A stretch of 64,000 nucleotides of DNA, from assembly GCA_015178975.1 (NCBI GenBank), contig WHVD01000040.1:124001-188000 (forward strand). Reading direction: 5' to 3'. Under the pieces are notes generated by a model. The model made no database searches and was not told the origin of the DNA. It saw only the letters and a list, made by a program, of their open reading frames with translations. Position numbers and translations under genes: made by a program. This document shows positions 8,614-64,000 of the stretch, in pieces; position 1 is the first letter of the stretch; every line of letters begins with the position of its first letter. Source of the stretch: Hysterangium stoloniferum (lineage: Eukaryota > Basidiomycota > Agaricomycetes > Hysterangiales > Hysterangiaceae).

Positions 8614-8714
8614 AAGATATATATCTCTGCAGCTGCTTTCTCTGCCTTTGTTTCCTACTTCTCAATGTTATCACTGCCATTTATTGGCTTGTTTTCTTAG
8701 AAGGAATTACAACC

Positions 8715-16189: not shown

Positions 16190-16291
16190 TACTTGTTTCA
16201 GAATAGATATCACTATTTAAAGATGGAGTTTTGTAAAAATAAGACTTTTATTAGTAAATATCTAAGATTATAGTAATTATAAACACCCTCC

Positions 16292-17176
16292 CTGATCAAG
16301 AGACCAGGATTGACCAAGGTCCACAAGATTGTCAAGGTGTGCTTTAGTTATCGGGTCTAGTGGAATTGCTGATAGAATATCTTGATGTAACTTCTCAATA
16401 TCCATAATGATAATTCCATGGACAATGGCATGGATCAGGAACATTGCACAGACTGATGTGGTAAGTTGCTGATTCATGAAAATGGGTTTCAAGTTGTGTG
16501 GGTTTACCGTGGCATAGTCATTGCTCCCCTCTTTAGGATAGATGTCCCATCATCTAGTTAAAGCATTGGCTTTGCCACCGAGATGGCCTGGTTGAAAGTG
16601 GATAATGATATTGAAAGCTGATAGGTATTCAGACCAGTAGGCCTGCCAACGGGTCAAAAGTTTCATAGTAGAAAAGTATTCCAGGTTTTTGTGATCTGTT
16701 GCAATGTCAATCAGAATTCCTGAGCCTTCCAAGTAGTGTTGCCATGTTTTGAAAGCTGAACAAATTGCTAGGAGTTCCTTATCATGAATGTCATAATTGA
16801 GCTCTGCTCAGGTGAAAGTCTGGGACAGAAAAGCCACAGGGTGGACTTCTCCATCAGAGTCCTGGATAGACAGAATGGCTCCAAGTGCATAGTCTGAGGC
16901 ATACATTTCAACAATGAGCAGGAAGTCTGGTTTCCAATGTGACAGAATAGGGGCTGAAGAAAAAGAATCTTTTAAAAGATTGAAAGCTTTTTGACACTTA
17001 TCATTAAAATTCCACAGGGTATCCTTGCACGTAAGATGGGTAAGGGGTACTGTGATGTCAGAATATCTGTGGATAAACCATCAGTAAAAATTGGCAAAGC
17101 CAAGGAAAGATTGTATATCTTTGACTTTTCTTGGTTCTGGCCAGTCTTTGATGACTTGTACTTTAGTTTCATCCAT
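16292..17176 (-). pseudogene. chromovirus RNase H and connecting region
   Basis: Minus strand, broken. Contains the RT-to-RNase H connection, the RNase H strand near [10 protein letters not shown] and [17 protein letters not shown], and the start of the linker to integrase. It is bounded on both sides by MITE copies. Confidence 0.75.
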
Positions 17177-17851
17177 GGAGGTTGTCCATAATCATTATAA
17201 TATCAAATGTTTACTAATAACAGCAAAATTGCTACAAAAATCCATCTTTAAATAGTGACATATCCTCTGAGAGTATTATATTGTTAACCACCAATCATAA
17301 GAAACAATTCTTCATATTACATCCTAAATAATTCAGAGTCAATTAATAGAACCTATTGTATATAGTTTTCCAATTTATGTAAATACTTGCTAATACTTTT
17401 GTTGTTAATTTGTTTTTTAAAAACTAAACTGTAGTTATTTCCTAGTAAAACATATGAGATGTTATTGGAAATTTTTCATCCTATGGCCTTCTTTATTAAG
17501 TGAGATTACCTATATATTCTGGGTATGTTGAATCAAGTAGAAATCTGTTCAGATTGACAGATCTATTCCGAAGTAATACATATGTATTTAGAGGTGCCAA
17601 TGATATACATATGCATGGAATGGACTATCTAAAGGTATCTATTTTTCAAAAGTATTAGTGTTTCAAACTACTAATTTATTTCATTGTCTACTCGTGTCCA
17701 GAAAGATTCTTTAGTTTGTAATGTATGAGAGAGTTTAAAATTTTTTGAAAGTTTTAAAAAGCAAATTATGTTTGAATCACATCCCAGATGTTTAAATGAC
17801 CTTTAGAGTATATTAGAATTTGGTATACTTAATATTTTTCAGATATCCTCC
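17177..17851 (+). mobile_element. 675-bp MITE, complete copy
   Basis: GGAGGTTGTCC...GATATCCTCC ends, no coding region, AT-rich. Flanked by a 3-bp duplication CAT (17174-17176 and 17852-17854), although the bases allow other short readings of the same duplication. Inserted in the reverse transcriptase region of the chromovirus. Confidence 0.8.
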
Positions 17852-18572
17852 CATGTGGAGTCTGCCAGGTCCCATTATGAAATCTAGGTATTCCACGGAG
17901 TCCATGTCAAAAGTACATTTTTTTACCATTTGCGAATAAACCATGTTGTCTGAGTCTCTGGAGAACTTCATGGACTTGTTTGTTGTGTTCTGCAGGGTCC
18001 TCAGAGTAGATAAGAATGTCATCCAAGTAAACAATGACACATACATTGAGCATGTCGGAGAAAATGTCATTAATAAAACATTGAAAAACAGATGGAGCAT
18101 TGGTGAGTCCAAAGGGCATCACCAACCACTCAAAGGCCCCATAACGGGTTCTGAAAGTGGTTTTCCATTTGTCTCCTGCAGAGATCCAGACCAAATGGTA
18201 GGCATGTTTAAGGTTTATTTTGGTGTAAATCTGGGCATTCCGTGAAGCATTGAGGAGGTCAGATATAAGTGGGAGTGGATACTTATCCTTTTTTGTGACA
18301 GCATTGAGTCCTCTGAAATCAACACATAGTCTGAGGGATCCATCCTTTTTGTTGAAAAACAGAACAGGTTCTCCAAAAGGAGACTTAGAGGGTCTGATAA
18401 AACCTATGGACAGATGTTCATCCAGGAAATTGCGGATTGCAGAAAGTTCTGTGGAGGAAAGTGGGTAAATATGTCCAAGGGGTGGCTGAGCACCTTCTTT
18501 GAGGTTGATTTTTAAGTCATACTCTCTGTGAGGTGGAAGTCGGTCAGCTTTTCGCTTACTAAAAACATCCAT
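17852..18572 (-). pseudogene. chromovirus reverse transcriptase
   Basis: Typical Ty3/Gypsy RT: YPLSSTELSAIRNFLDEHL, FFNKKDGSLRLCVDFRGLN, KYPLPLISDLL, FGLTNAPSVFQ and the catalytic VIVYLDDILIYS (YLDD form). One long open frame covers most of the domain before the MITE junction. Confidence 0.9.
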
Positions 18573-19399
18573 GAAATCATGAAATCTGGGATGCCTTCTA
18601 GGTCAGCGGTTTGCTCAGATGTGGATACCAGAGTTAAAAAATGACTGGTTGCTTCATCAATTTCCAAATTGATAGTGAACGCCTGGGATCCATCCATTTT
18701 TGGAGCCCTAATAAACACTGCAGCATTAATGAGAGAAATAGATGGAGGTGCTGTGGGTTCCAGGGAAGCCATGGGTGCTGTAGGGATCACAGGAGTCTTT
18801 GAGACTGCAGGTGCCAGGAAGGCCATAGGTGCTGTGGAGGCCATAGGTGCCATGGAGACCATGTTGGGTACAGTTTCCTCAGAAGCCACAGGTGTCCAGA
18901 AAATTATGCTGTTTGCTACCCAGTCAATAAATGGATTGTAGCAGGTAAGCCAGTTATGTCCTAGGACAATCGAGCAACTTGAGTCTAACTGGGTCACATA
19001 GAAAGTGACCAATTGAGATGTTCCACATGGGAACTGGATGGGTAAATCACAAGCTTGGGTGATAACTGCATTGTGTGTGCCATTGAAAAGTCGGAGGCCA
19101 ACCAGATTTATCAAATAAGTTGACAACAGGTTATTTTGCGTGAATTTTGTATCTAACAAACAATGAGTTGAGCCAGAATCTATGAGTGCTGAAAAAACAC
19201 ATTTCGGAATCATATTAGACATATGCAACCCCAACCCGGAGTCTGTGGGGTTGCTTACTCTTTTTTTGAGTCGGAAGCCAGTTTGGCCTTCGATGGGGAT
19301 TCCATGGAGGAAGTCTTGGCTGTTCAACCTTTTGCAGAGTGTGCTTTTGCCAACAGACATTCTGGAACTTGATGACTGGGTTTTCCACACAAGAAACAA
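18512..19399 (-). pseudogene. chromovirus protease region
   Basis: Retroviral-type aspartic protease: FSALIDSGSTHCLLD with the DSGS active site, and the flap/ILG strand IVLGHNWLTCYNP. A repetitive linker of Ala/Pro/Met/Thr (APMASTAPMA...) follows before RT. Confidence 0.85.
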
Positions 19400-20483
19400 A
19401 GGTTATTGTCCATACAACATTGTCTTTCTTGTGGGGTCAATTTGCCATCAGGTCCAAGCTTGCCTGTGAGGTCAGGTTTTCCAGTTTGCCTGCCGGACTG
19501 TTGACCTTTGTTGTTGTTATTATTATTATTGTTGTTGTTAGAAGACTTTTTATCATTCTTCTTATCAGATTGGGTGGAGTTTTGGTTGTTGGTTGACAAG
19601 TTGTTGTTGTTGGTTTTATTGGCCGTGGACTTGTTGACTTTGTCTGTGGAGGTCTCGTCGGCAACTTCTGTGTGACATTCCCAATAGCATGCATCTGCAT
19701 TTTGAGCCTTGAGGTGCATACAGGACAGTGTTTTTGGCTTGCCATCTTCTCCTTTTGAGACTTCATCTTAAGGTGGGATGGCAGACTGGCATAGAATTGG
19801 TGGCAGAGAGTGGGATTGCCCCACTGACAACAAGCTGCAAGATTGTTGAATTGGACAATATAGTCCATGATGCACTGTGTGTCCTTCATATGAAGATTAG
19901 TGAGACTATTCTCGGCTTCTCTGGTCAGGTCATATGGGCCAAAGTTGGTTTCTAGCTCCTCAACAAAAGCATTCCAATCTTTGAGCCAAAGTGGCTCTTC
20001 CTTGGAAAGACCGCTAAAAGCCAGTTCAAACCATTTCAATGTGGATCCCAAGAGGTATGAAAGTGTGTAATTGACTTTTCGGGAGTCCATGGAAAATGTG
20101 GCAGATCGATCATGGAAATTGAAATGACATTGCCTGAGGAAAGTGGAAAGTTTGTTTGGGTTGGAACCTGTGAAGGGTTCCAGAGCATTGACTTTTGACT
20201 GTGGAGGTTCTGGATCCTTCTTACTGCCTTCTCTGAGCTTGTGATTCATCAATCTCTCTAAAGTGATTGCTAACAAGTCAGAGGTGGGGTCCGAAAGTGG
20301 TGGTCGATCATTAGATGGGGGATTTTCAACATCTTTGCCCTTGTCAGGGGCCACGGACTCGTCCTTGTACTCAGATTTGTCTGGGTTTTCTGGGACTTCT
20401 TCAATATGGGCTTCTTCCATGGTGTCCGGCTGGTTTGTGAGTGTCTGGCTGGTATACAAAGTAAGTGGGGAATGAAGAGTCAA
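19324..20483 (-). pseudogene. chromovirus gag
   Basis: Acidic N-terminus, then the Gag/capsid-like body (FLRQCHFNFHDR, YTLSYLLGSTLKWFELAF, LKDWNAFVEELETNFGP). An Asn-rich run encoded by a trinucleotide stretch (about 19510-19545) comes next, then a CCHC knuckle (CFLCGKPSHQVPEC). Two overlapping frames are present. The family can use frameshift or read-through between gag and pol, but which applies here is not shown. Confidence 0.85.
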
Positions 20484-20565
20484 TGGTCCAGGGAATCATT
20501 CATGTATGTGTGCTTTTCTTCTTGGTGGCATATTGAACAATCTGTGAGTCTTAGTCAGAAAATAC

Positions 20566-23109: not shown

Positions 23110-23970
23110 TGTTACGACCGGACAATCCCGCCGGACTCCGGGCACTAACCCGTATGCCCCCACGCACTACAAGCACCAATCATCTGTTTATAGGATTTCC
23201 TGCCCAGACTCCGTTACGTCAAGACTAGTTACGTTCGACCCCTTACAACACATATCAGTCACCAGACTTCCCCCAGACCCTGTCTCTGTCTATGTCCGTC
23301 TTCGTCCCACGCATCAGTCACCAGATCCCGCTTAGAATCCCGTCACCGCTCTAATCGAGCCCCGTTCCCATTTTAGTCAAATGACCTGTCACAATTTAGG
23401 ACTCCGCTCCCGCTCCATTTCCCGTTATGGGTTATGCTTTGTCATGATTCGGACTCCGCTCCATTCCATCCCGTTCCTAACACCAAACTTGGTGTTTACT
23501 ATTCCTGTTTTATGTTCTGTTAGTTTCATTTCGTTATTACTGGATTTGGTATGTCATTCACTCCATGGTCTATATAAACTGGAAGATGTTGTACATACAA
23601 TCCAGTCAGAAAATTAGCTTAGATTCCCCCCAGTAATCTAATATATTTTCTGCTCTAAAAACCCTACTCTTATCAGACCGCTCACACTAGTCAGAGCCCA
23701 CGGGCTCCGGCGCATCTATCTCTCTCGACCATCTCGACTCACGACTCACGACCTCCGACCTACAACCTACAACCTACAACCTACAACCTACAACCTACAA
23801 CCTACAACCTACAACCCACGACCCCTGCCCGGACTCCCCGGGATTCCCATCTGCCTGTTTGAAATTGGACAATACGATCTAGCGAGGGCGCAGCCTATAA
23901 GCTGAAGCCAAGTCCTACCGGATATCCCACGGGTTTCTCCGGAGACCCGGCCTGTGTGTGTATCCTAACA
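23110..23970 (-). repeat. solo LTR (family A), CpG-rich copy
   Basis: Flanked by the 5-bp duplication GTTTC (23105-23109 and 23971-23975). Ends TGTTACGACC...CCTAACA. It holds a private 7-bp array (CTACAAC, about eight units, 23760-23815). Many CpG sites are retained, unlike the chromovirus LTRs, so it is a younger insertion. TATATAAAC lies near 23572. Confidence 0.85.
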
Positions 23971-32876: not shown

Positions 32877-34900
32877 TCAATCTAATAATACATCTTTGTA
32901 CACTATATTTGCTGTTCTCTTTGTCACTTTTAATAATATTTTTATCCTATTCCAACTTCTTCCCCTTGAAAGTCCCACATACAATTGCCCATGTCCAAAC
33001 ACTGCCATTCTCAAATCTATTCCTACCACTTTCAACGACTGTCCTTGTGACTTGTTAATTGTCATTGCAAATGCCAACCGCACTGGAAACTGAATACGAT
33101 GCAGTTTAAATGGCAGTTGATCATCATTTGTAATTATTTTGATCCATGAAAGAAATGCCATTTTTCCAGTACATGGTCCAGTTAGGATCCACACTTGAAG
33201 CAAATGATTTTCCATTTTCACCAATCGCAATCGTGTCCCATTGAAAAGCCCCCTCTGTGGATCTATGTTCCGTAACAGCATCAAAGGCACTCCTGGCTTC
33301 ACCTCAAGTCGACTTGGTGAGATTCCACCAAAATTCAGGCTGTTCAAATACTCTACAGGATACATCTCTGTCTCACTGTCTCCTTCTGCAGTATCAGCAC
33401 TGTGGTATACATGACTCTCCCCAGGGAATTTATTCAGAAGTTCTGAATTAATCTCATCAACCTCTGAATTAATCTCATCAACCTCTGAATTAATCTCATC
33501 AACCTCTGAATTCCTTGGACACAGAATTGCCCGGTCTAAGAAGTCTTCATCTTGTGGATATATCTCAGTAATTAGATCAGACATTTCTGGACCACAGATC
33601 ATATGAGGAGGGATATTCATTGTATGATCCAAAGGTAAATCCTTTCCATGGCCTATATCCAATAGCCACTGAGCAAACTGTTGACTGTCTGGATCATCCT
33701 GGTCCACCCGCATATTCTTTTTCAAGAAGAGTACCTTGATATGCTTCCACAGTTCTGATTTCTGGATACATTGTCCAATGATCTGTTCTTTTGAACCCTT
33801 TGGTACAACAGGCAAAGTCTGCTGAAAGTCACCTCCCCAGGCCACAGGAATCCCTCCAAAGGGAAGATCCTCCTTGTCTAATAAATCCCTCAGGGTTCTG
33901 TCAACTGCCTCACATATGAAATGTGACTGCATTGGAACTTCATCCCAGATAATCAGTCAGACATTCTTCATGAGCTCTGCCCTTTCTGAACCCTTTTTGA
34001 TATGACACAGAGCATCCTTCTCACAGGGAACAGGGATTGAAAATGTACTGTGAGAAGTGCAACCACCCTTGAGAATCATTGATGCAATTCCAGAAGATGC
34101 CACACAAAGCACAATGTAGCCCTTGGCCCTACATGCATGTGCCAGAGTATTCCATACAAAGGACTTGCCAGTGCCTCCTGGACCATTGACAAAGAACAAT
34201 TTGCCTTCTTGTTGCTCATCCACTGCCTTCATGATAGTCTCAAAGGCAGCATGTTGTTCAGGATTACACTTTTCAAGATTAGCTTGGGCACTGGCAAGCT
34301 CATGTTGAATATTATAACTCTTTTGCTCATTAATGAGATGGTTGCCAACAATGGCATCCCAATTATCAGTGCAGTTTGGCATGGTTGGATAGTGTGAGAG
34401 GGACTTTCCAGAATAGCGTAGGATCTTATCAATTTCATAGAGACCAAAGTCATAAACTTGGATTGGTGATGGATTGTCAATGCCATGTGTTTGCTGAAGT
34501 ATGAACTCCAAATCATCACAAAGAAATACTTAAAGTCATTCCAGAGTTCATGGGGTTGTGCAGGGGAGGACATGGTCAAAATGATGGCAAACAACCTGCA
34601 AAGTTGAAACCCAGACTCTATGTGACTGGCTTCTGTAAGGCACATGTGCCACTGGCAGTCATCTTCAAGCAAACCACATGCAACACAGGCTTGCTGAAAT
34701 GTGGGATAAGTCTCACCCTGAAAAGTCCTGAGCTGTTCAAATGAAGTGGCACCTTTGACAACAGTGAGCAATGTACAGAGGTGGAATCTTTCCCCACTGG
34801 CAATGTTAACAAAATGAATGCGCCCTATGGAAAACCCACTTTGATGTGGCTTCCATGATTTCTTCTTGGGTACATATGTGAAATACTCAGGAAAGTCCAT
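32877..34900 (-). pseudogene. Helitron Pif1-like helicase domain
   Basis: Walker A GPGGTGKS at 34161-34184, Walker B-type WDEVPM near 33930, WGGDFQQTLPVV, and the C-terminal superfamily-1 motif AMTINKSQGQSLKVVGIDL and LYVGLSRG. A 21-bp unit is repeated three times at about 33438-33510 (EINSEVD). Frames change near 34500, and a stop sits between LMKNV and the Walker B block. Pif1-type helicases unwind DNA during rolling-circle transposition. Confidence 0.85.
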
Positions 34901-34921
34901 ATAAAATGTGTCCTGGGCATG

Positions 34922-36353
34922 CTATCCATTATATCCAATGAGACCTTTGGCATTAGCTTCAAAATAAGCCATGAGAGTTGTCCCTGAATGCTCTGCCCTT
35001 TGTAAAGCTTCAGCAGGACCTTGATCACCATCAAAAAGTACAGTGTTTTCTCCAGGAAGATGGACCCCAAGTGCCATTACTGCAGGAACCTGGGTGTGGA
35101 GTTCATTACGCATTAATCGCCAAACAGATTCATGTGCACTGACATAACGTGCATCAAGGTACTGTTGAATTTCATCTGGTGTCCTTCCAAATTCCATAGT
35201 TGTACGATCATGGCCCTTGTAACAGTATTTATGCATGTACTTCATTGACCTATTGGTAAAGGTCAACTCTACATTGATATGGCATTCAAAGGTAAGAATC
35301 AAAATGGGGGAGTAAGGGACAACATGTCTGTTGTCATATGTAAACTTGGGAGTTTCATAAACCCTTCCATTGTTGGGGGGATGGCATGTTGGATAACCTT
35401 CCTCATTGACAATAGTGGCTTCACACCAATCCTTTGGATAGTTTTTACTGCATTCCTTATCTACCATACAGGCAGCATTTGGATGATCAGTTCCACAGGG
35501 ACCATGGGTCATGAGTTGACCTACTAAATTAAACAGTCTGGGATGTGTTTCAGGATCTGGAAAACAGGCAGAAATTATGGAGTCGACATCTTCTGGTGTC
35601 CTTGGCTTATTCTGGTCATCAAACCATATGAGGCAGTGCATGTGTGGAAGACCACGCTTTTGGAATTCAATGACATGGATATGGGCTACTGTTCTACCAA
35701 AGATCTGGTCCTCTGTAATCATCTTGAGCAACTTAGCCTTTGGCAGCAAAGACACGGGAGACCAAATCAGGATGATCAGCTGGAGTCTGGCCAGGAAGCA
35801 ATTCATCAGTAACCTCCTTCCACTTGGGATTGGCTGTCATGGTGATGAAGCAGCTGGCATTGCCATACTTTCGTGCAATTGCAAATGAATTTTGCAAACT
35901 TTGTCTCATATCCCTTGAACTGCCAGTAAATGTGGAAGGGAGTATGACCCTCTGGCCAATACTATTGGCATCTGTACTGACATCCTGATTTGTAAATGCA
36001 TCGACCACCTGGTTGTAGAGTTCTGCACGTAACCTTGGTTGATTATCCCTGAGAAATCTCAATCTGCGCTGCTCTGTTACTGCCCAGGCATTGACAATAT
36101 ACTGCTGGAATAGCTTTTGTGCATAAAAAAGGGTCATGGCTTCATATGCTCTGGGAAATAGGCGATAGGCATAATATTCACATTGGGTCACCTTCCGACT
36201 TTTATCTTCATCTTCACCTTCTTCATCCTGCTGTCCAGGCTGGGGCTGCCAATTTTGATTGGCATAGGGAATGTCCCATGACCAACCACGCTCACCCCTG
36301 GGAAAGAGCATAACATAATGAAGGGGTGTACAAATGGCCTGTCCTTCATGCAA
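34922..36353 (-). pseudogene. Helitron_like_N and HUH Rep domain
   Basis: Helitron_like_N signature (LHYVMLFPRGERGWSWDIP, YYAYRLFPR, RLFQQYIVNAWAV-like, MTANPKWKEV) is followed by the rolling-circle nuclease. The HUH-type motif LPHMHCLIWF is at 35621-35650. The Tyr-containing helix KYMHKYCYKGHD (35210-35245) holds the Tyr/Lys residues that nick and join the single strand. A frame change occurs near 35740, and a stop separates the domain from the following MDFPEYFTY block. Confidence 0.85.
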
Positions 36354-36377
36354 TCGATGGAAAGGCCCCCCCCTTCT

Positions 36378-49989: not shown

Positions 49990-50664
49990 GGAGGTTGTCC
50001 GTAATCATTATAATATCAAATGTTTACTAATAAAAGCAAAATTGCTACAAAACTCCATCTTTAAATAGTAGTATCTATTCTGAGACTATTATATTGTTAG
50101 CCACCAATCATAAGAAACAATTCTCCATATTACATCCTAAACAATTCAGAATCAATTAATAGAACCTGTTGTATATAGTTTTCCAATTTATGTAAATACT
50201 TGCTAATACTTTTGTTGTTAATTTGTTTTTTAAAAACTAAACTGTAGTTATTTCCTAGTAAAATATATGAGATGTCATTGGAAATTTTTCATCCTATGGC
50301 CTTCTTTATTAAGTGAAATTACCTATATATTCTGGGTATGTTGAATCAAATAGAAATCTGTTCAGATTGACAGATCTATTCCGAAGTAATACATATGTAT
50401 TTAGAGGTGCCAATGATATATACATATGCATGGAATGGACTATCTAAAGGTATCTATTTTTTAAAAGTATTAGTGTTTAAACTACTAATTTTTTTCATTG
50501 TCTACTCGTGTCCAGAAAGATTCTTTAGTTTGTAATGTATGAGAGAGTTTAAAACTTTTTGAAAGTTTTAAAACCAAATTATGTTTGAATCACATCCCAG
50601 ATGTTTAAATGACCTTTAGAGTATATTAGAATTTGGTATACTTAATATTTTTCAGATATCCTCC
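49990..50664 (+). mobile_element. 675-bp MITE, complete copy with mismatched flanks
   Basis: Same length and ends as 17177-17851 and highly similar throughout. The left flank is the LTR family D fragment (CTA) and the right flank is the Harbinger transposase (AAT), so no target duplication is present. Confidence 0.8.
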
Positions 50665-50674
50665 AATGTGCTGA

Positions 50675-51720: not shown

Positions 51721-52073
51721 GACTTGGCTTATGTAATTTGGATCCAAATTGGTGGAATAATAAATAAAAAAAAGTAATCACTCATTGGAATGATTTTTTG
51801 CTCTCTATTACATTGACAGAAAAGCTACTATTTCAGTAAAAATATAAGTTTAAACCACTTGTAAGAATAATAAACATGTCATGTGACTTTGTTTATATCT
51901 GTTTGACATGTTGATAGTTGGTTCAACCATTCCTTAGCGTTTACCACTACCATGAAAGCTATTTCTGCTACTCAGGACTTGACTATTATCTCTCTTCTTC
52001 AAGGGGGGGACATTTGACACTCAAATCCACACTAAAATTTGTTTAGGGAGGGCAACAATCAGCAGGATCAAGG
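51721..52073. other. no gene recognised; purine tract
   Basis: Apart from the decayed end of the transposase region, the only landmark is a purine run AAGGGGGGGACA near 52000. It resembles a polypurine tract, but no LTR follows directly. Confidence 0.35.
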
Positions 52074-52814
52074 TGTTAAGAACTGAAAACTGATTAATGT
52101 TGGTAGGCCGACAGGGACCGATTGGAAGGACTTGGCTTCAGCTTATGTGCTGCACCCTCGCAACTTTCCGTCGGCTGTCCTTAAATTTTGGATGGGCAAA
52201 GACTAATCCTAACGAATACCTCTCAGCGGAACTACCGATCGGAACTGAAGGATAAGTCGAGTGTCGGGCCAAGGGATTGGAGACCGAGAGTGGGCGAGCG
52301 CACGCAGAGGCGGATAGTGGAGTACTTAGTATGAGACTGCCAAAGGTATAAGAGGGTATTCTGAGTCGATATTCTGATTGCCTAGTAACTACAACTACAA
52401 CAGGTTCATATACAAGTATTCAGCATCTAGGAAATATTAACTAGGAGAAGAGTGGAAAACGGTATTGACAAATAAGCTCGACTAGGAACAGGAAGGTTAC
52501 GATTAGTTTGGAGGCTGTGAGAGAACTGAGAGTGGAATTATGAAGAAAGGAAATAGTTCGAGGGTTACAAGTACATATAGACATAGGTGAAACATAGAGT
52601 AGAACAGATCATCATAATAAAAGGGACGTATCAGAGTTTAACCAGATAGTACGAGTATATTTTGATGGGGGCATAAATGGAGTTTGATCACTGCGAAAGC
52701 ATACATCAGCATCGGGAAACTGATGGCTTCCGAGGTGGGACTTGAGTGATGACTTGAATCGTCCATAGGTGGCAATAACCTCAGGGACCATTGGGTTGTG
52801 ACACGGTTGTAATA
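52074..52814 (+). repeat. solo LTR (family B), 741 bp
   Basis: TGTTAAGAAC...TTGTAATA with the 5-bp duplication CAAGG (52069-52073 and 52815-52819). The end is TAATA where the other copy has TAACA. Lacks the 16-bp array of 48764-49737. Confidence 0.75.
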
Positions 52815-52819
52815 CAAGG

Positions 52820-53478
52820 CTGAAGTGCTTGCAGATAAAGAAAACAACCTAGCTGGCTGTCCTTCCAAGCTTACTATTTCACAGCAGTCAGTAAAAAAAC
52901 CCTTCCAATGAGTCTCTTGTATACAAATATTTGTAGTATTTCTATATTTGGAGTTTATGTAATGGCAGTGTATTTCCACAATCTAGTATGATAAAATATT
53001 CACAATACTTGTGATATTTTTGTATTTTTATTCTGAATTATCAGGGATGTAAGTGTGAAAAATCAAATATTGGAAGAGTTTTTTGATACACTGTATTCCT
53101 TCTAGCTATGACTACATATTTGAGTTTATATGCCATTAACTCTAAAATTTTATCTTTAAAACTTGTATATCCTTTAAAATGCACAAATGTATGGTTAAAC
53201 CATAGATTATGACCTGATCTTCAGGATAAGATGTATTCTCTGGTATCTGTGTGACTTCTCAAAAATAGTTAATATAATTTAACTTTATTTGATTCAGAAG
53301 CTTAGCCAGATCTGTCTAGCTTGTCAATCCATGTTGTAGAATTCAAAAGATGATACATAAATGACTGTTTGGCTAATTTTTATTTGATGCAGAATATACA
53401 TTAATATTTCCCCATTCTCCAGAATATTGTGCAATGGACTGTATTTCATGACATATTAATTCTTTGTGAAACAATATA
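52820..53478. other. no gene recognised
   Basis: AT-rich sequence without open frames or repeats that I could relate to the rest of the window. Confidence 0.4.
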
Positions 53479-53666
53479 CAGTAGGCAACAAAACCATTAC
53501 AATATTTTGTACTTTTTGAAAGACATGTTTATTCCTCAAGAAATAAATTCTCTTAATTTCTGAAAATATTATGTAATGTACTTCAACATCATACCTTCTT
53601 GCATGCACAGCCACAAGGTACCATGTCCTTATTGTTAGATTGTGTAATGCTATAATTGTTTCCCAG

Positions 53667-53738
53667 GGTTAGATGGTGTAATGGGTTAACACCTCTGTTA
53701 TATAAGCAGAAGCCCTGGGTTCAATTCCCAGTCTGGCC
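53667..53738 (+). ncRNA. tRNA-like sequence, probable SINE head
   Basis: Folds as a full cloverleaf: acceptor GGTTAGA/TCTGGCC (7 pairs, two G-U), D stem GTGT/ACAC, anticodon stem TCTGT/GCAGA with loop TATATAA, and T arm CTGGG-TTCAATT-CCCAG. It has internal promoter boxes TGGTGTAATGG and GGTTCAATTCC. Loop position 33 is A, not U, so a working tRNA (nominally anticodon UAU) is doubtful. The 3' flank ATTC.TTTTCTA.AC.TTTAA is shared with the tRNA-like sequence near 63586, which favours a tRNA-derived SINE. It lies in the 3' flank of the Tc1-like transposase. Confidence 0.6.
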
Positions 53739-53851
53739 ATTCATTTTCTACACTTTTAACACTTATTTGGTAAGTCCATCATCTCACACAACCCAACAAC
53801 TTAGTGTAAGGGTTTTATTGCACACTATTTTGAAACTATTATTATAAAAAA

Positions 53852-54869
53852 TTAGTATTTAGTATAGCCCCCCTTTGCCCTGATCACTGCTGCAAGCCTT
53901 CTAGGCATGCTTTCAATAGGTTTCTGACATTCCTCCTTTGTAATCTCTTCCCACAACTTCTGTACCCTCTCCCAAAGTTCATGAACACTATTTGCAGGTT
54001 GTTCATACTCTCCCAGCTTCTTCTTGGGATGATTCCAGAGATGTTCAATAGGATTCATGTCTGGAGATTGTGCAGGCCACTTGAGGACTGTAATTCCATC
54101 GTCATTGAACTATTTCTGGGCCTTTTTGCTGGTACACTCAGGATTATTATCTTGCTGAAAGAGAATATTATTTATTGATTTGTTGTAATACAGTATTTGA
54201 GGGTTTGCTGGAGTTCATAATGCAAGCTCCTCACATAAAGGTCAATCCATCTTCCCATCAATTTTGGTTGCAAACCAACCCCATCTAGCCCATGCATTCA
54301 CACATCATCAAATTTCCTCCTCCAAACTTGACTGTTCCCTCCACCAACCTATCACTTAAGCCCTTACCCACATTTTTCCATACATATTTCCTTCCATCTG
54401 ACCCCAGCTGATAAAGTTTAGTCTCATCAGACCATATTACCCTCTTCCAGTCATCCAGAGTCCATTCCAAATGCCTTTCTGCAAACTCCAACCTTGATTT
54501 CCAATGATGAGTTTTAAGAAGTGGCCTTTTTCTCTTCACCACAGCCCTCATGCCTTTTGGTTTTGAGGTAGCAATGCAATGGTTGTGAAGTAGTGGGAGT
54601 GTTGATGATGTCCTGAAGTGCCTTTGTTGCCTTTGTAGTATGATCAACCTTTCCCATGCAAATTATCCATCTAGCATAGTCAATATTTGTATTGGCAAGC
54701 TTGGTGGGACAGCCACCAGAGGACTTGGGGAGGTCAGGATGATGCTCAGAGTGAATACAACTAATGTGGCACTGCTGATATGAGTTTGGTGACAGATTTG
54801 AGCTCCAGAAATTCCAGAGTCAAGTGGAGTAAGAATGGGCTGAATTTTGCTGGAGGAGAGCTTCTTCAT
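53852..54869 (-). pseudogene. Tc1-like DDE transposase, broken
   Basis: Minus-strand pieces: N-terminal HTH (KIQPILTPLDSGISGAQICHQTHIS), middle (RPLLKTHHWKSRLEFAERHLEWTLDDWKRVIWSDETKL with the first catalytic Asp, FGGGNLMM), and C-terminal NPIEHLWNHPKKKLGEYE with the catalytic Glu and RAKGGYTKY end. About 340 codons, as normal for the family. Frame changes separate the three pieces, and the block around the second Asp (54060-54285) is degraded. Confidence 0.8.
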
Positions 54870-54896
54870 TGTGGGCTAAGGCACTTTGTTAGGATA

Positions 54897-55706
54897 CACA
54901 CACAGGCTGGGTCTCCGGAGAAACCTGTGGGATATCCGGTAGGACTTGGCTTCAGCTTATAGACTGCGCCCTCGCTAGATCGTGTTGTCCAATTTCAAAC
55001 AGGTGGACAGGAATCCCGGGGAGTCCGGGCAGGGGTCGTGGGTCGTAGGTCGGAGGTCGGAGGTCATGAGTCGTGAGTCGAGATGGTCGAGAGAGATAGA
55101 TGCGCTGGAGCCCGTGGGCTCCGACTAGTGTGAGCGGTCTGATAAGAGTAGGGTTTTTAGAGCGGAAAATATATTAGATTACTGGGGGGAATCTAAGCTA
55201 ATTTTCTGACTGGATTGTATGTACAACATCTGCCAGTTTACATAGACCATGGAGTGAATGACATACCAAATCCAGTAATAATGAAACGAAACTAACAAAA
55301 CATAAAACGGGAATAGTAAACACCAAGTTTGGTGTTAGGAATGGGACGGAACGGAGTGGAGTCCGAATCGTGACAATGCATAACCCATGACGGGAAACGG
55401 AGCAGGAGCGGAGTCCTAAATTGTGACAGGTCATTTGACTAAAACGGGAATGGGGCTCGATTAGAGCGGTGACAGGATTCTAAGCAGGATCCGGTGACTG
55501 ATGCATGGGACGAAGACGGACATAGACAGAGACGGGGTCTGGGGGAAGTCCGGTGACTGATATGTGTCTTAATGAGGTCGAACGTAACTAGTCTTGACGT
55601 AACGGAGTCTGGGCAGGAAATCCTATAAACAGATGATTGGTGCTTGTAGCGCGTGGGGGCGTACGAGTTAGTGCCCAGAGTCCGGCGGGATTGTCCAGTC
55701 GTAACA
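54897..55706 (+). repeat. solo LTR (family A), CpG-rich copy
   Basis: TGTTAGGATAC...GTCGTAACA with the 5-bp duplication CACTT (54892-54896 and 55707-55711). It is about 95% identical by eye to the reverse complement of 23110-23970, with differences mostly at CpG sites. It has GTCGGAG units at 55040-55075 in place of that copy's CTACAAC array. Confidence 0.85.
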
Positions 55707-55802
55707 CACTTATGGGATCAACTGGTTGCTTTCACCTTATATACATTGGGGAGGGTGGTTACATGACCTTGTTGAATGTAACAAACAAAGTCTTGTGACT
55801 AG

Positions 55803-56126
55803 GTGTGGTATCAGCATTATCTCATAAGATCCTCTTAATTTTCTTTGAATTATTTAATATTTTATCGAATTTATTGTATTTTTATTATGCATATTGTGAA
55901 AATTAAGCCTTATTCCTTTTAACTTCGCATAAATAATAGCATATATGGGCTCATATTATGCTATTATTACTTATTTAATTTATTATAATTTTTAACTAAT
56001 TATTTTACATCTATTTATTTAGTTATTGCTTTGTGGCACTTTGCTGCACCTTGTTTGCACTTTTTTAGTGTCATGTGACCTATTAAATAAGCAGGATAGC
56101 ATACAGTCACAGATGTGACTGTAACG
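55803..56126 (+). repeat. dispersed AT-rich repeat E, copy 2
   Basis: Reverse-complement partner of 25060-25455. Confidence 0.65.
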
Positions 56127-56129
56127 ACC

Positions 56130-56640
56130 TGCTCAAGTCATCATTTGCTTCCGCCAACTCACCATTTGCTTCCATCCCGGGACCGCGGCCCAATGAAATA
56201 ATGAACCTTCGAGTTCAAGCAAAGGTTGGAATGCTTGTCTCTGTTAAAATGGTAATTGAAACTTTAATGGATATTTGTGGGTAACTAGGCATTAGGCTAT
56301 GTATTGTTACAGTTGCTTAGTAATACTTAACCTTTTTGCTATCAACCATATGTAATGATGCTCACTTTCAATAGTCTCAGACTTGGGAGTCATAATATAA
56401 ATAAAGGGTAATAATGAGTTAAATATGAGATCATTATTAGCTAAATAAGGATCTCATTAAATAATTAAATAGATAAATAATTAGTTATCAAAGTGTATAT
56501 AAGGAGGGCCAAGTTTCCAATAAGAATAACTTATCACACACATATTTTACAGCACATCTTGGAAGATTATCTCATTATCCTAAGGACAATAATAGCCTTC
56601 CATGGTACAGTTGTCATTTGATGCCAGATTGCACTGTCAA
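56130..56640 (+). repeat. LTR-like sequence 3' of the KDZ gene
   Basis: GTATATAAGGAGGGCC at 56503 followed by ATCTCATTATCCTAAGGACAATAATAGCC, as in the family D LTR at 11103-11195. The block near 56300 (ACAGTTGCTTAGTAATACT) resembles 63960-63990. Ends not resolved. Confidence 0.4.
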
Positions 56641-56694
56641 TAGCACCATTAGCATTAGTGATCATTAAGCAATATCAACTGAATAGAGAAGTAC

Positions 56695-59035
56695 TTACTT
56701 ATACTTTTTCAATTTCTCAAGAGCTTCAACATATGCAACACATAAAATATCTTCAGAGGATTCTTTAGTAGCTTTTGCAAGGAAGGCAGCCTCCTCAGAG
56801 TGCCACATCTCAATTATTACTGAAGTATATCCAGTAGATGACTTGTAGGCTTCAATGATTGGTGTAACATCATTGATGATCTTGAGTGCCTGTTTGTAAT
56901 TGTTATATAGAAAATTGCCTAACAATGTAAGTGAGATGTGGCACACAGAAAGAGAAAAAACTTACTTAATTCTAAATATTTACCTTCATCCCATTGTTGA
57001 AAATGAAGATCAAGAAATTGTCCCCAATGGAAGTGTGAAGCATGACGAACACCCCATGCTACTGAGTTAGATGCTGAAAAGACACATTCACATGTTTCCA
57101 TATCTTCAAGACCAATGCTAGTATGGTACATAGGATGATAGACAAGTTGGCATTTACGTTCATGTGCATAACCATGAAATGAATTGAGTAGTAGTTGGAG
57201 ATGACATTGGTGTGCCTGTTTGGAAAGAGAGCTGTTATTGACAGTGGAAGTAAATGAACATGCAATATCACATCCAACCAATAGATCATCACCAAAGGTG
57301 GTGAGAAGGTGGTTGAGTGTAGCAAGACCATACTTAGCAAGTTCCCCACTCTGGCACATTTCTGCATATGTTTGAACAAGTCCATGACAACAAGCACTTA
57401 CATAAATTCCAGTCTGATCAAAAACCCGAATTGTGTCCTCACTGATAGCATGAGAAGCTTTCCAATTGTTGCTACATATGCCTTCATCATCATCAAATGG
57501 GCTGTCACTATCACCAAGCTTGTGTTTGCCTTTGGCTGACTGACAGGATCTCTTAACATCATCCTTAAATAGGTCAACATTCTCATTTCCAATATCATAA
57601 TCACTGGTGAATGTGTGGTTATCAGCAGCTGCCAATGGCATACACTTCATAGATTGGTTTCCATCCATGGCTTGAATCCGAGAAGGAATGAGGCGCACTT
57701 CATTTTCAAGCTGTAGTTACTGGCATTAATACAAAGTAAATAAAGAATAGAAAATATATACATACATTGTAAGAACATGGAGGACATGCATGCCGAAGAT
57801 GCCACTGGGGTGTTGTCCGGCCTAATGCAGTGTTCACTAGGTGTTCTACTCGTCTAAGGAGGTCTAGGTACACATCAAATGGAATAGAAATTTGGGTTCG
57901 AAACACTGGAGAATATGTTACCTTGAGAAATAAGTCAGCTTGACATACACAACAGGTAATCAAATGAAGTTGGCTGACTTACATTGTTAAGGGCACATAG
58001 TACTTTGCAGATAGCCTGGACAGTGAAGGATGATTGGTGTCTTCAGATTTGGTGGTATAATTCTAAACACTGTAGGGAAATGGCAACTGAGGGCATAGTG
58101 GGGGAACAGCCAAGTAATCCAGTACGTATGAGAGAAACATTAGCTAACTCCCCAGAGTCCTGTCAAACACTATAATTTGGAAAATACTCTAAAAGTCAAT
58201 ACAAAAGTTATTAAATTAGTGTAGTAGTATGCAAACAGAAAATAATATATACACATGGTGTGTATCCACAGCTGTCACTGTGAAGTATGTAGGTGTTGGA
58301 AGAGAAGCATCAGGTAGATTGTTGGCCAGAGGAGCAGAGTGTCGAGAAGTGTTGGTAGAACAAGGGGGTGGCAGTGACCACAAACCTTTTGTATTGAATT
58401 TCCAACTCATGAATGCCACCAGAAGGTGAGGTGCTTGTGCTTCCCATTCACTATGGATAATATTTATATGCTCAGAGTGTTCCTGTTTAGATCTCCTGAG
58501 CTTCAGCCTTTTAGGATTAGCATAACTATTAATCCAGATAATGATTAAATATTAATGTTATAAAACATACAATGCGCTCACCGATATACTGCATTGAGCT
58601 GTGCATTATCAATTATTGAAGTGTTACAACTCGTCTCATTGTCATCCATTTGAGCCTGAATGTCAGAGTCAGAGTCCTGCACATTGTTGTCATTCACAGA
58701 ATGTTCATTGTCCAAATGGCCATCTAGATAATCATGGTCATATATATCCTGTGTACCCGTCTCCATGTGCGCTTCAGCAAGTTTGAGATTGGCCGCTGTC
58801 ATTGCTAAAGGACCAAGGTGGGTCAGTGTACATCATAAAGTCAGTATGTTACTATATGTAATAATAATAAAGTGTAATTTACTTACATTTCAACCTCCTG
58901 ATGCTCTTGAATAAAATTAGCGGCATTCTGGCGGATGTGCGCAGTAGTAATCCTAGACATTACAAGACGTCCATTTGGCCCAACACTAGATACAGAGACC
59001 TTTGAAGAGAGCCCTAACTTGTGCTTCTTGCCCAT
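56695..59035 (-). CDS. KDZ (Kyakuja-Dileera-Zisupton) transposase
   Basis: Minus-strand gene. Exons I can support: 58802-58582, 58507-58255, 58159-57983, 57921-57766, 57710-56966 and 56918-56695. Their introns of 47-95 nt have GT-AG ends and keep the frame (about 590 codons). An upstream exon 59035-58887 (MGKKHKLGLSSKV...) probably holds the start, but its junction at 58886/58804 does not keep frame. Family blocks in order are SLIRTGLLGCSPTMPSVAISLQCLELY, FDVYLDLLRRV, LRHACPPCSYN-LENE, the first acid in AMDGNQS, FDQTGIYVSACCHG, VGCDIACSF, FHGYAHERKCQL, GLEDMETCECVFS and KYLELSNFLYNNY. A single in-frame TGA at 58043-58045 (where Arg is usual) makes the copy probably inactive. KDZ enzymes are DDE-type transposases abundant in mushrooms. 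Confidence 0.85.
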
Positions 59036-59303
59036 GAAATGATAGGAAAGCAAAGCCCAGGAATGAAATGGCGGCAGGTGGGGGACAAGCAAAGTGCAGG
59101 GAGACACATTATGTCAGCTATGTACAGTTGTGTACAACTAGAGGTCGCGTGGAGGATTGCAAGCGAAGGGTGACTCATCTAGCAGCCGGGAAGTGCAGGA
59201 ATCCAGCAGGGTGCGGCAAAACAGCTTATTCATTCTAACTAGGTCGGGGCTCAGGGGGCTATGCGGCAAGCTAATTAGGTCGGAAATAGAAGATACACAG
59301 GTG

Positions 59304-59760
59304 GCAATGCATTGGAAGGAAACCTGTGCCGTCCTTGGATCGAAAAAACATGGAATAAAATTAAAAATCTTGTATAAACACTGTTGGTTTTTTTAGAACT
59401 TATGGTGTAACATACGATCTCCATGCTCGCCACTCTGTTGACTGTCATCGATATGACTTGCATTCACGGTTTACTTCGCAAATGATAAATAGTCCCGTCA
59501 CAGCACATTTCGCCTTTTCCCAACTCACCTACGTATCGTACGTATCCAATAAGATCAAAACAGATAATTTTTGCCATAATGAAACAAAATCGCGTCATTC
59601 TCAAACTTTCTATATTTTTCGACAAACGCGATATCCTCGTCTCCGGAGCTGTCACTTAAGAACCGGCTTTTCCCGATGGCTCAGATAAAACCACGCCACA
59701 GTTAAGGGACAGCCCCCAGCCGCTGCCAACCCTAGTTGATGCAATCGTGGTATCATGGGT
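59304..59760 (+). repeat. 457-bp inverted repeat, left arm
   Basis: From GCAATGCATTGGAAGG to GTATCATGGGT. Appears base-for-base identical, with equal length, to the reverse complement of 62583-63039. The arms enclose a caspase-like gene. Both outer edges abut GTG (59301-59303 and 63040-63042), compatible with a 3-bp target duplication. Short frames inside (59458-59688) are duplicated with the arm and show no family motif. Confidence 0.9.
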
Positions 59761-59854
59761 TATATGTGCCTGATTAGCAGAATAGTTCAGTTGTGTAATA
59801 TATATTGTTTTGCATATATACTAAGTGCTGGTGTCAATATGGATAGCAAAACCT

Positions 59855-59923
59855 CTCTAAACAATAAACCCTCGCTTCCCCCATCGCTATACCTCTCACC
59901 CTTCCATCATCTTTCCTCTCAAC
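59855..59923 (+). promoter_or_regulatory. 5' flank of the second caspase-like gene
   Basis: CTAAACAATAAA (59858-59869), CCATCGCTATACCTCTCACC and a pyrimidine-rich run up to the ATG at 59924, matching the minus-strand flank of the paralogue at 2909-2979. Confidence 0.5.
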
Positions 59924-62095
59924 ATGGCACCACTCTCTCCATATTCACCTACAATCCCGTGCGTCATTCAGATGCTTACATGAGGTATTGTTCACATCAT
60001 CCCGTAGTAACAAGAAAAAACTATTCGCCTTGCTGATTGGCATTAACGAATATCTGGACAAATCAATTGATTGCCTGCACGGCGCAGTCGCTGATATAAA
60101 TCTCGTAGCAGAACTCTTGGAGAAGACGTACGACCTCCGCTGTAAGAAGCTATTCAACGCAGAAGCGACACGCAGGGCGATCATTTCTCAATTCCATGCT
60201 CTTGAGACTGATGGTCTGATCCACAAGGGTGACCCTATCCTGATATACTATGCCGGACATGGTGACGAGTTTGCTGAGCCTGACGGATGGAACTGGCACC
60301 CAGAATATGGCAAGATCCAGACCATCATACCATACGATACTATTAAGAAGAATGGCACTGAAGTCCATAATATGATTTCTGATCGCGGCTTATATGTTAT
60401 GCTGGAGAGCTTGGCGAAGAGGAAGGGTTGTAACATTGTAGGTAGCTCATTTAGTATGTGGGCTCGAATTTTCTGGTCACTAACCAACAATATTGGCAGA
60501 CAGTTATTTTAGACTGTTGCCATTCCAATTCTGGTGCAAGAGACCTTCAGGAGCCTGAGTTCGCATGTAGGCGTGCAAGGACCGGCGGCACTCTTCCACA
60601 GAATCAGGATAGGGACATCTTCAACTCTACCTCGGCACAATCTTCACATAATTATACATATTCTGAATCTGGAAGTTACGTTCTACTTGCGGCATGCGGC
60701 CATGCACAAACCGCCGGTGAGGACCGGGGGTACGGGCGTTTTACAAAGGCCTTGGCCGATACATTGGAGCGTATTGGCTTCGAAAAAGTTACATATAGTG
60801 AACTCCTAAAGCTTCTACCCATCTTACCAGAGTAACGTCCCCTTGCGCAGTCTCAGTTTCAAATTCTTTTGTTGATGGGATTTTTTTATATAGTCAAAAC
60901 CCGCATTATCAAGGCAAAGTCCCGGAGCGGTTTTTATTCAGTCTTGAAAAACTGGACAAATTCGTTATTCCTGTGATAAAAACAAAGAATAACGATCTCG
61001 TGTTGTTGGCTGGGTCAGTGCAAGGGGTTGCAGAAAGGCTTGTTTTCGAAGTTAGGACCATAGACGGGGAGATTCTGGGTAAATTCAAACCCATCAATAT
61101 TCAACAGGAACAAGCGACACTCGACCCCGCCTTCGAGTCTGGTTCAAGAGACATCTTCAAATCCCTTGAACGCGCGAGAGCACATCTGGTTGAGGGGGAG
61201 CTGCACAATTTCAAGGTTCATTTTTCGACCTCATTTACCCATGATTTTGTGGCGTCTGTGGAGAATGCGACAAATTATTGCATCACAATTGTTGCAGAGG
61301 ATGCGGCGGCTGACCTACTTGTGTGTATCGAAAACTCTGCGGTCGCCTTTACCATGCGGTTCCCAGGTTTACAATACCAGCAGAGGCTTGATATAGACAC
61401 TAAGAATACATCGGAAGAAATATCGGGTGTCTTAGAGAGGGCTGCAGGTGTTCATTGGCATCTTTGTAGGGAAAGCCAAGATTCAAGTGATCTTTCTATT
61501 CAGTTTCCCCGTGGAGCGGAACAAAAGGAACAAAATGATAGTGTTTTGATCGAGTTTTTTCCTGTAGCAGCGCAAGCAAATGATCCCATTCGAAGACCAG
61601 TCGAGAGGTACCAAAATCTAATTCAAGACGGAGTTATTGATATACTCATCAATCCCAAGAAAAACAACTACGGAATGAAGTTGACGAACAACACAAGTTT
61701 CAATTTTTATCCTTACGTCTATTACATCAACGTGAAATCCTTGGAAATAAGTGAATATTTCATCTAAATCCCCAAACATTTCTTACTCTCTCTATTCAGA
61801 ACACATCCACGATATTAGTCCAATAGGTGTTAAAGGGGCTGATTCACCGCTGCCATCCCAGGGTGGAGAGGTCGCGATTGGTTATGGCACAATAAAAAGG
61901 AATTCATTAACCTTCAGGAATCCTTCTTCACTACCAACGCGATACGGATTTTTCAAAATTTTCCTTACGACTTCGGCTTTGTCAACGTCACCTATTGCAT
62001 TGTCGCCATTCACATCTGTGCGCCGCGCCCTGTATTTAGAAGTAGATGAGCGTTGGTACTCGTGCCTCCTAAACATTGTAGAAAGGACAGAATAG
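59924..62095 (+). CDS. caspase-like protease (peptidase C14), catalytic residues present
   Basis: Exons to 60437, 60500-60831, 60894-61750 and 61800-62095. The introns are 60438-60499 (62 nt), 60832-60893 (62 nt) and 61751-61799 (49 nt), all GT-AG and frame-keeping. Introns 1 and 3 match the two introns of the paralogue. The protein is about 645 residues from the caspase frame. Fold landmarks: KLFALLIGINEY, HGAVADINLVAELL, catalytic His in IYYAGHGDEF, catalytic Cys in ILDCCHS, then LLAACGHAQTAGE and PHYQGKVPERFLFS. A C-terminal beta-rich region follows (YGMKLTN, GADSPLPSQGG, IGYG, FKIFLTT). Fungal C14 proteins of this build are soluble cysteine proteases linked to stress and death responses. 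The start is unsure: the ATG homologous to the paralogue's start (59924) runs into TGA at 59981, and the caspase frame has no upstream ATG. This leaves a small indel, a near-cognate start or an unseen exon. The gene sits alone between 457-bp inverted repeats. Confidence 0.85.
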
Positions 62096-62269
62096 GGAAG
62101 TAGGGATCGTCGTCCGCCTGGTGTATGAGTGTGCGGTTCTAGCTTTGTATATTACGTGGCTGTTGTAATTTTGGCCGTTAGGTAGTAATCTCACTGTGAT
62201 GACACTTGTGAGTCCCCAGGATATTTGGTGCTAGACTATGTAGTTCTTACATTGCTTGAGCTTGTCCCT

Positions 62270-62362
62270 AATCGTGCCGGGGTTTTATTTGAGACATCGG
62301 TAAAAGCCAGTTCATAAGTGACAGCTCCGGAGACGAGGAGTTCTGCTAATCAGGCACATATA
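62270..62362 (+). repeat. diverged partial copy of the inverted-repeat arm
   Basis: GACATCGGTAAAAGCCAGTT...AGTGACAGCTCCGGAGACGAGGA matches 62660-62710 at roughly 85%. It is followed by CTGCTAATCAGGCACATATA, the reverse complement of the bases just inside the left arm (59761-59783). Older trace of the same duplication. Confidence 0.7.
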
Positions 62363-62582
62363 TAGCTTTTCTCCGGCATTGTAATGTAGTTTTAAAGCCC
62401 TGCATGATTTATGCGGCTTTCGGAAAACTTGTGAATCATAGTTGAGATGGACCATACTCGAAACCACGGCGCTCAACAAGCCTATCTCAATTCCTAATTG
62501 AGTTATAGCGTTATTCTTAATTATACCTTATACGGAATCGTATTTCAACGAATTTGTGTTTTGGTTTGTGTTTTGTGCCAGT

Positions 62583-63039
62583 ACCCATGATACCACGATT
62601 GCATCAACTAGGGTTGGCAGCGGCTGGGGGCTGTCCCTTAACTGTGGCGTGGTTTTATCTGAGCCATCGGGAAAAGCCGGTTCTTAAGTGACAGCTCCGG
62701 AGACGAGGATATCGCGTTTGTCGAAAAATATAGAAAGTTTGAGAATGACGCGATTTTGTTTCATTATGGCAAAAATTATCTGTTTTGATCTTATTGGATA
62801 CGTACGATACGTAGGTGAGTTGGGAAAAGGCGAAATGTGCTGTGACGGGACTATTTATCATTTGCGAAGTAAACCGTGAATGCAAGTCATATCGATGACA
62901 GTCAACAGAGTGGCGAGCATGGAGATCGTATGTTACACCATAAGTTCTAAAAAAACCAACAGTGTTTATACAAGATTTTTAATTTTATTCCATGTTTTTT
63001 CGATCCAAGGACGGCACAGGTTTCCTTCCAATGCATTGC
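62583..63039 (-). repeat. 457-bp inverted repeat, right arm
   Basis: Reverse complement of 59304-59760 with no mismatch seen. The sequence diverges immediately at both edges. Confidence 0.9.
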
Positions 63040-63580
63040 GTGCAGGCTGTCGTACCCCGTTGAAAACTAGGAGGTCGTGCCAAAGTGACAGCGCTAAGTT
63101 GACACGATTCCTGAATGCCTTTATAACTTTAGGTCTTTGGAGCTTTCTCTCAGATGATGCGGCTAGCGGGTGGGGTCCATGCAGCACTGAACCGCTGTAT
63201 ATCTGGTTAGGGTAAGATGCACTGCTAATAGCAAAATAAGTTTCACAGCCTGACAGAATTTGGGTGACAGCTCTTCTACATGGCCATCCGCAGTGATTCT
63301 GAAAACGATATATAATGATAGATATAAGCGAAAGAAGAAAACCTTACTTTGTTTCAGGCGCATTCAAAAGTGAAGCGCACACGGTTGGAAGATGACGCGA
63401 AGGGGGCAGGGAAGTTTATGGCAGAAACCGGACGCTGCCTCTCCCCGTCACTCGAAATCGCGGTCTATCTGCCACCACCGTGTGCACTCCGTCTCTGTAA
63501 GTCTCATTAACAAGAAAATGGAGACTCAACAGAGGAGTGAATCCTGGCATCCTTACTAGTATCTATTAAAGGTATAGAAA
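63040..63580. other. no gene recognised
   Basis: Short frames only. CpG content is moderate and no repeat partner was found in the window. Confidence 0.4.
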
Positions 63581-63585
63581 AGAAT

Positions 63586-63661
63586 TCACCCAGCCTGGGA
63601 TTGAACCAAGGACCTCCTAGCTTTATATAAGTGGTGCTCTTAACCACTGAGCTACTGGACC
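63586..63661 (-). ncRNA. tRNA-like sequence, degenerate (SINE head or pseudo-tRNA)
   Basis: Minus strand GGTCCAG-TA-GCTC...GAGC with boxes TAGCTCAGTGG and GGTTCAATCCC, T arm CTTGG/CCAGG, and acceptor 6 of 7 pairs with a G-G at the end. The anticodon arm (CCACT-TATATAA-) does not pair well. Shares TTATATAA and the 3' flank with 53667-53738. Confidence 0.5.
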
Positions 63662-64000
63662 TATTGGTCTAGTGTTATACCAAGGATTATATATACATAT
63701 TCTAAAGGGATGTCTAATGCCTACTGGGACTTATAACAGTCACATATGGACCGATGCCTACTTGGGACTTACAATAGCCTGCACACTGATAGATATTGTA
63801 TTTCCAATTCTAACACTTCCCCTGAAATCAATATCTAATCTATTTACCCTACACAGTGTATATAATCTGCCAGGGCCCATAACCTATTAAAATGTTGAAG
63901 TATAATAATCATGCATTTGTCTTGTTAATAAAACTTGTACTTCAATAAGTAAATACTGTACAGTTGCTTACTAATACTAATATTTTTTGTTTGCATCCAC
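63662..64000. other. LTR-like sequence, no gene
   Basis: Two GTCCCA.GTAGGCAT units (minus strand) and a purine run TTCAGGGGAAG before TGTTAG near 63820 (minus strand) look like the edge of a Copia-type LTR. The last 40 bases resemble 56300-56330. Ends unresolved. Confidence 0.35.

Follow-up and report, generated by a model that had tools for sequence, protein, structure and literature searches.

The caspase-like (Peptidase_C14) gene at 59924–62095 (plus strand) of the Hysterangium stoloniferum sequence lies between two 457-bp arms, at 59304–59760 (plus strand) and 62583–63039 (minus strand), which are exact reverse complements of one another (457 of 457 positions, 100 %) with 2822 nt in between. 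Our current working hypothesis, to which we would give about an even chance, is that the arms arose when a nearby stretch was recently duplicated in inverted orientation, either through template switching or through a templated insertion at a break, with no transposon involved; we cautiously favour this over the capture of the gene by a transposon. The sequence-only reading of the same 64 000 nt (the whole stretch analysed here, referred to as the window; GC content 0.42) had described two 457-bp arms without mismatch, GTG adjoining both outer edges, an interior holding one intron-containing C14 caspase gene and nothing resembling a transposase, and a paralogous caspase gene that has no such arms, and all of these descriptions are borne out by the present analysis. 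The same reading had held that nearby repeats are diverged, which is correct for repeats of more than 200 bp (the next pairs are 95.9, 93.7, 92.4 and 89.7 % identical) but not for shorter ones (98.6 % over 69 bp).

Arms, edges and two asymmetries

With 0 differences in 457 positions the upper 95 % bound on the divergence of the arms is about 0.66 % (3/457, calculated by hand), and the arms are therefore either young or recently homogenized. Their termini are GCAATG..CATTGC. On the plus strand the left outer edge reads ...CACAGGTG|GCAATGCATTGG... and the right outer edge ...CCAATGCATTGC|GTGCAGG..., the flanking sequence supplying GTG at 59301–59303 and again at 63040–63042; by hand calculation an exact match of three bases at two edges has a chance probability of 1/64. 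No full copy of the arm other than its partner is present in the 64-kb window, neither as a second pair nor as a solo arm, and the terminal motif GCAATGCATTGGAAG, allowing at most three mismatches, gave four matches including the two arms (2.85 expected). Folding at the left outer edge showed no notable hairpin (z −0.29). When the flanks were joined without the intervening unit and read by eye, nothing recognizable appeared; an open frame on the minus strand, roughly 100 codons long, spans the join, and its part at 62969–63343 has no Pfam match.

Two features distinguish the surroundings of one arm from those of the other. The first is a block of 22 nt at 59761–59782 (plus strand), directly adjoining the left arm on its inner side, which is an exact inverted match to 62341–62362 (minus strand), 220 bp inside the right arm, and which we read as templated filler with the latter as its putative donor. 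Allowing at most three mismatches, this 22-mer has two occurrences in the window, compared with a mean of 0 over 100 shuffles, and of the five exact matches of at least 12 nt between the sequences bordering the arms (59150–59303, 59761–59923, 62363–62582 and 63040–63300) and the rest of the window it is the only one that touches an arm junction. The second is the arm's one match in the window besides its partner, an older partial copy of the inner arm part at 62263–62339 (plus strand; 87 % over a 78-column alignment), which ends one base short of the putative donor. It lies 370 bp from its counterpart in the right arm (62632–62709) and in the same, direct, orientation, and no diverged arm copy of this kind lies beside the left arm. 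Taken together, the 22-nt block and the older repeat found on the right side only suggest that the right arm is native and that the left arm is a derived inverted copy of 457+22 bp.

Exact arms around a gene are also the picture expected of an older palindrome in which gene conversion prevents the arms from diverging and the interior may also invert. However, at the sensitivity of our shuffle comparison there is no diverged margin of similarity outside the exact arms: save for the 22-nt and 78-nt blocks, neither the flanks nor the interior edges resembled each other above 30 shuffles by the margin set, so that long-term gene conversion is unnecessary, just as the 0/457 differences make ongoing conversion unneeded. 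The filler, moreover, is one-sided, and we consider a palindrome of this type very unlikely. Much the same low probability attaches to an assembly artefact or haplotype join that introduced a second, inverted copy of the 457 bp; such an error would yield exactly identical arms, yet an interior of 2.8 kb and a 22-nt block taken from a third place appear unlike a simple hairpin or overlap artefact.

The plus strand of the window has four occurrences of the pattern GTGACAGC[GT]C (62318, 62688, 63085 and 63264), all within 1 kb around the right arm, and the minus strand has one, inside the left arm. As a feature common to the right arm and the right flank it was set aside as too post hoc, the alignment of arm and flank not rising above shuffles.

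A proposed copying model for the left arm

We hypothesize that 62583–63039, downstream of the caspase gene, is native and that a copying event during repair or replication took place on the upstream side of the gene. The native stretch would have been copied in reverse, from 63039 to 62583, after which 220 bases would have been skipped and 62362 to 62341 copied; native upstream sequence would resume at 59783, where the product was joined on. The outcome would be an inverted insert of 479 bp (the 457-bp arm and the 22-nt filler), with 141 bp between its end and the start codon. What was observed here is the exactness of the arms, the match of the filler, including how it is oriented and ordered, and an older repeat present on one side only; from these we infer the copying direction, a single event and a repair pathway. 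The source of the filler lies on the same strand as that of the arm and further along the same copying direction, and hence one path, in one direction and on one strand, gives the left arm and the filler in the order seen. The model thus explains both the filler and the one-sided older repeat, while the GTG match is better explained by a transposon.

As in a templated inverted insertion, the left arm repeats nearby DNA in inverted orientation, and the filler at the left inner junction (22 nt) has its source in the same neighbourhood. The likeness to templated insertions and to MMBIR/FoSTeS extends to the insertion of inverted nearby DNA a few kilobases away and to its composition of two pieces (457 and 22 nt) from one neighbourhood. 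At yeast breaks, templated insertions are joined to the break ends with 0–4 bp of microhomology; local foldbacks are mostly about 5–34 bp and distant inverted pairs have medians of 50 and 150 bp, according to the excerpted sections of that study (PMC11724301), and in great apes the maximum for templated inversions is given as 128 (PMC7954356, in extract). The present insert differs in being longer, and both of its pieces have the same orientation, an arrangement that the excerpts of PMC11724301 describe as very rare for pairs derived from a single locus. An arm of 457 bp would accordingly be long for a templated inversion beside the published cases, and the duplication also leaves the GTG match to a chance of 1/64.

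Possible transposition and the surrounding DNA

The alternative is a DNA transposon of the non-autonomous kind, whose terminal inverted repeats (TIRs) would be the 457-bp arms. In the manner of Pack-type elements it would have captured a complete caspase gene, and its insertion close to a KDZ transposase gene would have duplicated 3 bp of the target, GTG. We regard this as possible, but, by a modest margin, less probable than a local inverted duplication. The terminal inverted repeats are present at 457/457, and the putative target-site duplication, GTG/GTG, is of 3 bp only, a match expected by chance in 1/64 of cases; exact arms with GTG at both edges, around one intact gene and no recognized transposase, are nonetheless what such an element would leave. 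There is precedent in other fungi in hAT elements that carry a histone H3 gene (PMC6710886, PMC3538342, both in extract). The unit resembles these transduplications and Pack-TYPE/Pack-TIR elements in having a host gene between long inverted arms with short direct flanks, and differs from them in the lack of a second copy in 64 kb, the unmatched termini, the complete gene with its introns, and the one-sided filler and older repeat. Among the titles and abstract openings of open-licence PMC articles, no report uniting a caspase with transposon cargo stood out.

Against transposition stand the absence from the window of a second arm pair or a solo arm, termini unlike those of any family for which termini were compared, and the 22-nt and 78-nt blocks, which make the right arm look native. 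The filler is not decisive in this respect, since TIR transposons capture DNA through gap filling with template switching (PMC8277862, in extract). The identity of two TIRs, for its part, would date a duplication or conversion and not a transposition. No match was obtained in viral contigs with a 20-nt arm end, an arm pattern of 18 nt or the filler itself (22 nt), nor in prokaryote genome contigs with a 22-nt arm pattern, which weighs little against a transposon as these collections are not fungal; in the same non-fungal viral contigs the caspase protein gave six pattern matches, with 0 confirmed as a relative, and the KDZ protein gave none. Of the two readings proposed from sequence alone, namely a long-TIR transposon that had captured a death-pathway gene and a palindrome kept identical by gene conversion, what survives is the recent origin of the second arm, which is supported, and the fit of GTG to a 3-bp duplication; the junction block and the one-sided older copy point instead to a local inverted duplication.

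Known transposon families were compared on their termini and duplications. PIF/Harbinger elements have a TWA-type target, and GTG is not TWA, although the 3-bp length fits. By duplication length alone EnSpm, PlavakaB or Harbinger would fit, the canonical Harbinger duplication being 3 bp in the portion of PMC12730594 available. The same portion gives EnSpm as having CAC..GTG termini and 3 bp, PlavakaA TGT..ACA and 2 bp, PlavakaB CATCA..TGATG and 2–3 bp, two Laccaria families of Kyakuja CA..TG ends, no TIRs and 7-bp duplications, and Zisupton 8-bp duplications (PMC12730594). In Cryptococcus, CNIRT6 is a CACTA element with 3-bp duplications and 24-bp TIRs starting CACTG, and KDZ elements have TIRs of 139–241 bp and duplications of 4–8 bp (PMC12810828, in extract). 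GCAATG..CATTGC does not match the termini of Kyakuja, EnSpm, PlavakaA/B or CNIRT6 as these extracts give them. EnSpm/CACTA does not agree with the unit because the arms, for all that the 3-bp length fits, start GCAATG and end CATTGC in place of CAC..GTG (PMC12730594), and Plavaka because arms that start GCAATG have neither TGT..ACA nor CATCA..TGATG (PMC12730594). KDZ does not agree either: there is a KDZ transposase domain 1.6 kb left of the unit and some KDZ elements carry cargo genes (TET/JBP; PMC12730594), but KDZ duplications are of 7–8 bp, or 4–8 bp in Cryptococcus (PMC12730594, PMC12810828, both in extract), and the 8-bp edges here, CACAGGTG on the left and GTGCAGGC on the right, agree at 1 of 8 positions.

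The window is rich in transposable elements, which is what a transposon reading would lead one to expect. Pfam matches identify copia (7172–9020), gypsy (12798–13670 and 17910–20495), Tc1/mariner-like (15276–15887) and Helitron (32880–36377) sequences, together with the KDZ transposase domain (PF18758) at 56922–57716 on the minus strand (E 7e-63), outside the unit and on its left. The scan covered 27 of the 60 stop-to-stop ORFs of at least 130 aa; the 33 left out comprise many in tandem-repeat stretches at about 28–33 and 40–43 kb and two caspase-exon ORFs, the product of which was scanned separately. The KDZ gene probably starts at 59035, so that its 5′ side faces the left arm from 268 bp away, and the gene is probably a silenced remnant, as it lies in CpG-poor DNA (0.16). 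No sign was found that the caspase unit is KDZ cargo, the ends of the KDZ element not having been placed: of the 161 pairs from an inverted-repeat search of 52000–64000, none of the 25 longest was convincing.

A separate, unrelated inverted structure at 14014–17853 has arms of about 680 bp (89 % over 562 bp), the left one split by a mariner-like element (14588–16191) with TIRs of about 210 bp (92 %). A further copy of its arm, 96 % identical to the right arm, is present at 49990–50670, which shows that a long-armed repeat is dispersed in this genome and agrees with a transposon reading of the caspase unit. To the right of the unit, a weak tRNA match at 63586–63661 (minus strand; 33.5 bits, gathering score 29), not found by ARAGORN, may represent a decayed tRNA or a tRNA-derived element.

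The ratio of observed to expected CpG has a median of 0.25 in 457-bp windows and rises to near 1 at the caspase genes and two repeat copies, a two-state landscape such as methylation-driven decay of transposons would leave. Values are 0.02–0.30 in transposon remnants, 0.89 and 1.04 in the two caspase genes and 1.20 in the arm; inside the unit they are 0.97 to the right of the gene and 0.37 in the short stretch to its left. Within 57000–64000 the best bounds of the CpG-normal island are 59138 and 63493 (gain 42.6 log units), falling to 29.7 log units if the right edge, and to 39.3 if the left edge, is held to within 60 bp of the arm edge; left edges at 58906 and 58758 are almost as good (42.1 and 42.0, within 0.6 log units). 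The island therefore extends about 450 bp past the right arm and some 165–545 bp past the left. Support for a duplication from CpG asymmetry was withdrawn, which slightly lowered our confidence in the duplication and raised that in a transposon, as the left edge is poorly placed and the immediate flanks are alike (first 200–268 bp: left 0.67 and 0.57, right 0.69 and 0.64); similar flanks would be expected where an element has inserted at a single site. The repeat copies at 23110–23970 and 54887–55706 also sit in CpG-normal stretches, and normal CpG is thus compatible with a young transposon. CpG content does not decide between duplication and transposon.

The caspase gene and its paralog

The enclosed gene was modelled by eye on GT..AG sites as a single open frame of 649 aa in five exons (59924–59958, 60008–60437, 60500–60831, 60894–61750 and 61800–62095, plus strand). 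Its product matches Peptidase_C14 (PF00656) with 63.5 bits (cut-off 21.4, E 3.1e-17), and contains YYAGHGDE and DCCHSNSG, of which GHG and DCCHS are presumably the catalytic His and Cys motifs of a caspase. It is by PF00656 membership and by these two motifs that the gene resembles other Peptidase_C14 caspase-like genes; the difference is that past residue 258 it has no Pfam match (E 0.001). A comparison of 282 residues of the protein with solved structures gave no match, and a Pfam scan of the gene product and one arm ORF, with the other small ORFs of the unit left out, recognized no transposase.

The paralog, at 1020–2976 on the minus strand, aligns with 59857–62085. It has SYTVNGNV in place of the first motif, and so has lost the catalytic-His motif, and it retains DCCHSNS. 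The two are 51 % identical over 458 aligned codons, both with long open frames, and give dN 0.343, dS 0.457 and dN/dS 0.75 (bootstrap 0.57–0.97); exon 2 gives 1.13 with a wide interval (0.72–1.96). In simulations of neutral change at 0.20 per site a mean of 7.5 stop codons arose and two of 500 runs had none, a figure to be taken as a guide only, the aligned stretches having been picked as open frames. It thus seems, from this comparison, that the frames were retained as the protein sequences diverged rapidly. In 48 comparisons involving the flanks of the paralog (two flanks, six segments, two strands, two scorings) two matches stood out, the leader from 59857 and one of 21 nt to the right flank; the latter was taken as chance.

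It is tempting to speculate that the unit belongs to a new long-TIR transposon family, characterized by GCAATGCATTGG ends and 3-bp duplications, which took up an entire, functional caspase gene, mobilizes it as a cassette and spreads fast-evolving cell-death genes genome-wide, but we regard this fuller proposal as doubtful. A mobile cassette, if true, would show a transposon with a whole caspase gene aboard. If, as we favour, the arms arose by inverted duplication, they would provide a clean example of perfect inverted repeats arising with a gene-sized spacer, in which the scar preserves the sequence of copying steps. Arms this perfect could in time bring about inversion, the formation of hairpin RNA or further rearrangements affecting a cell-death gene.
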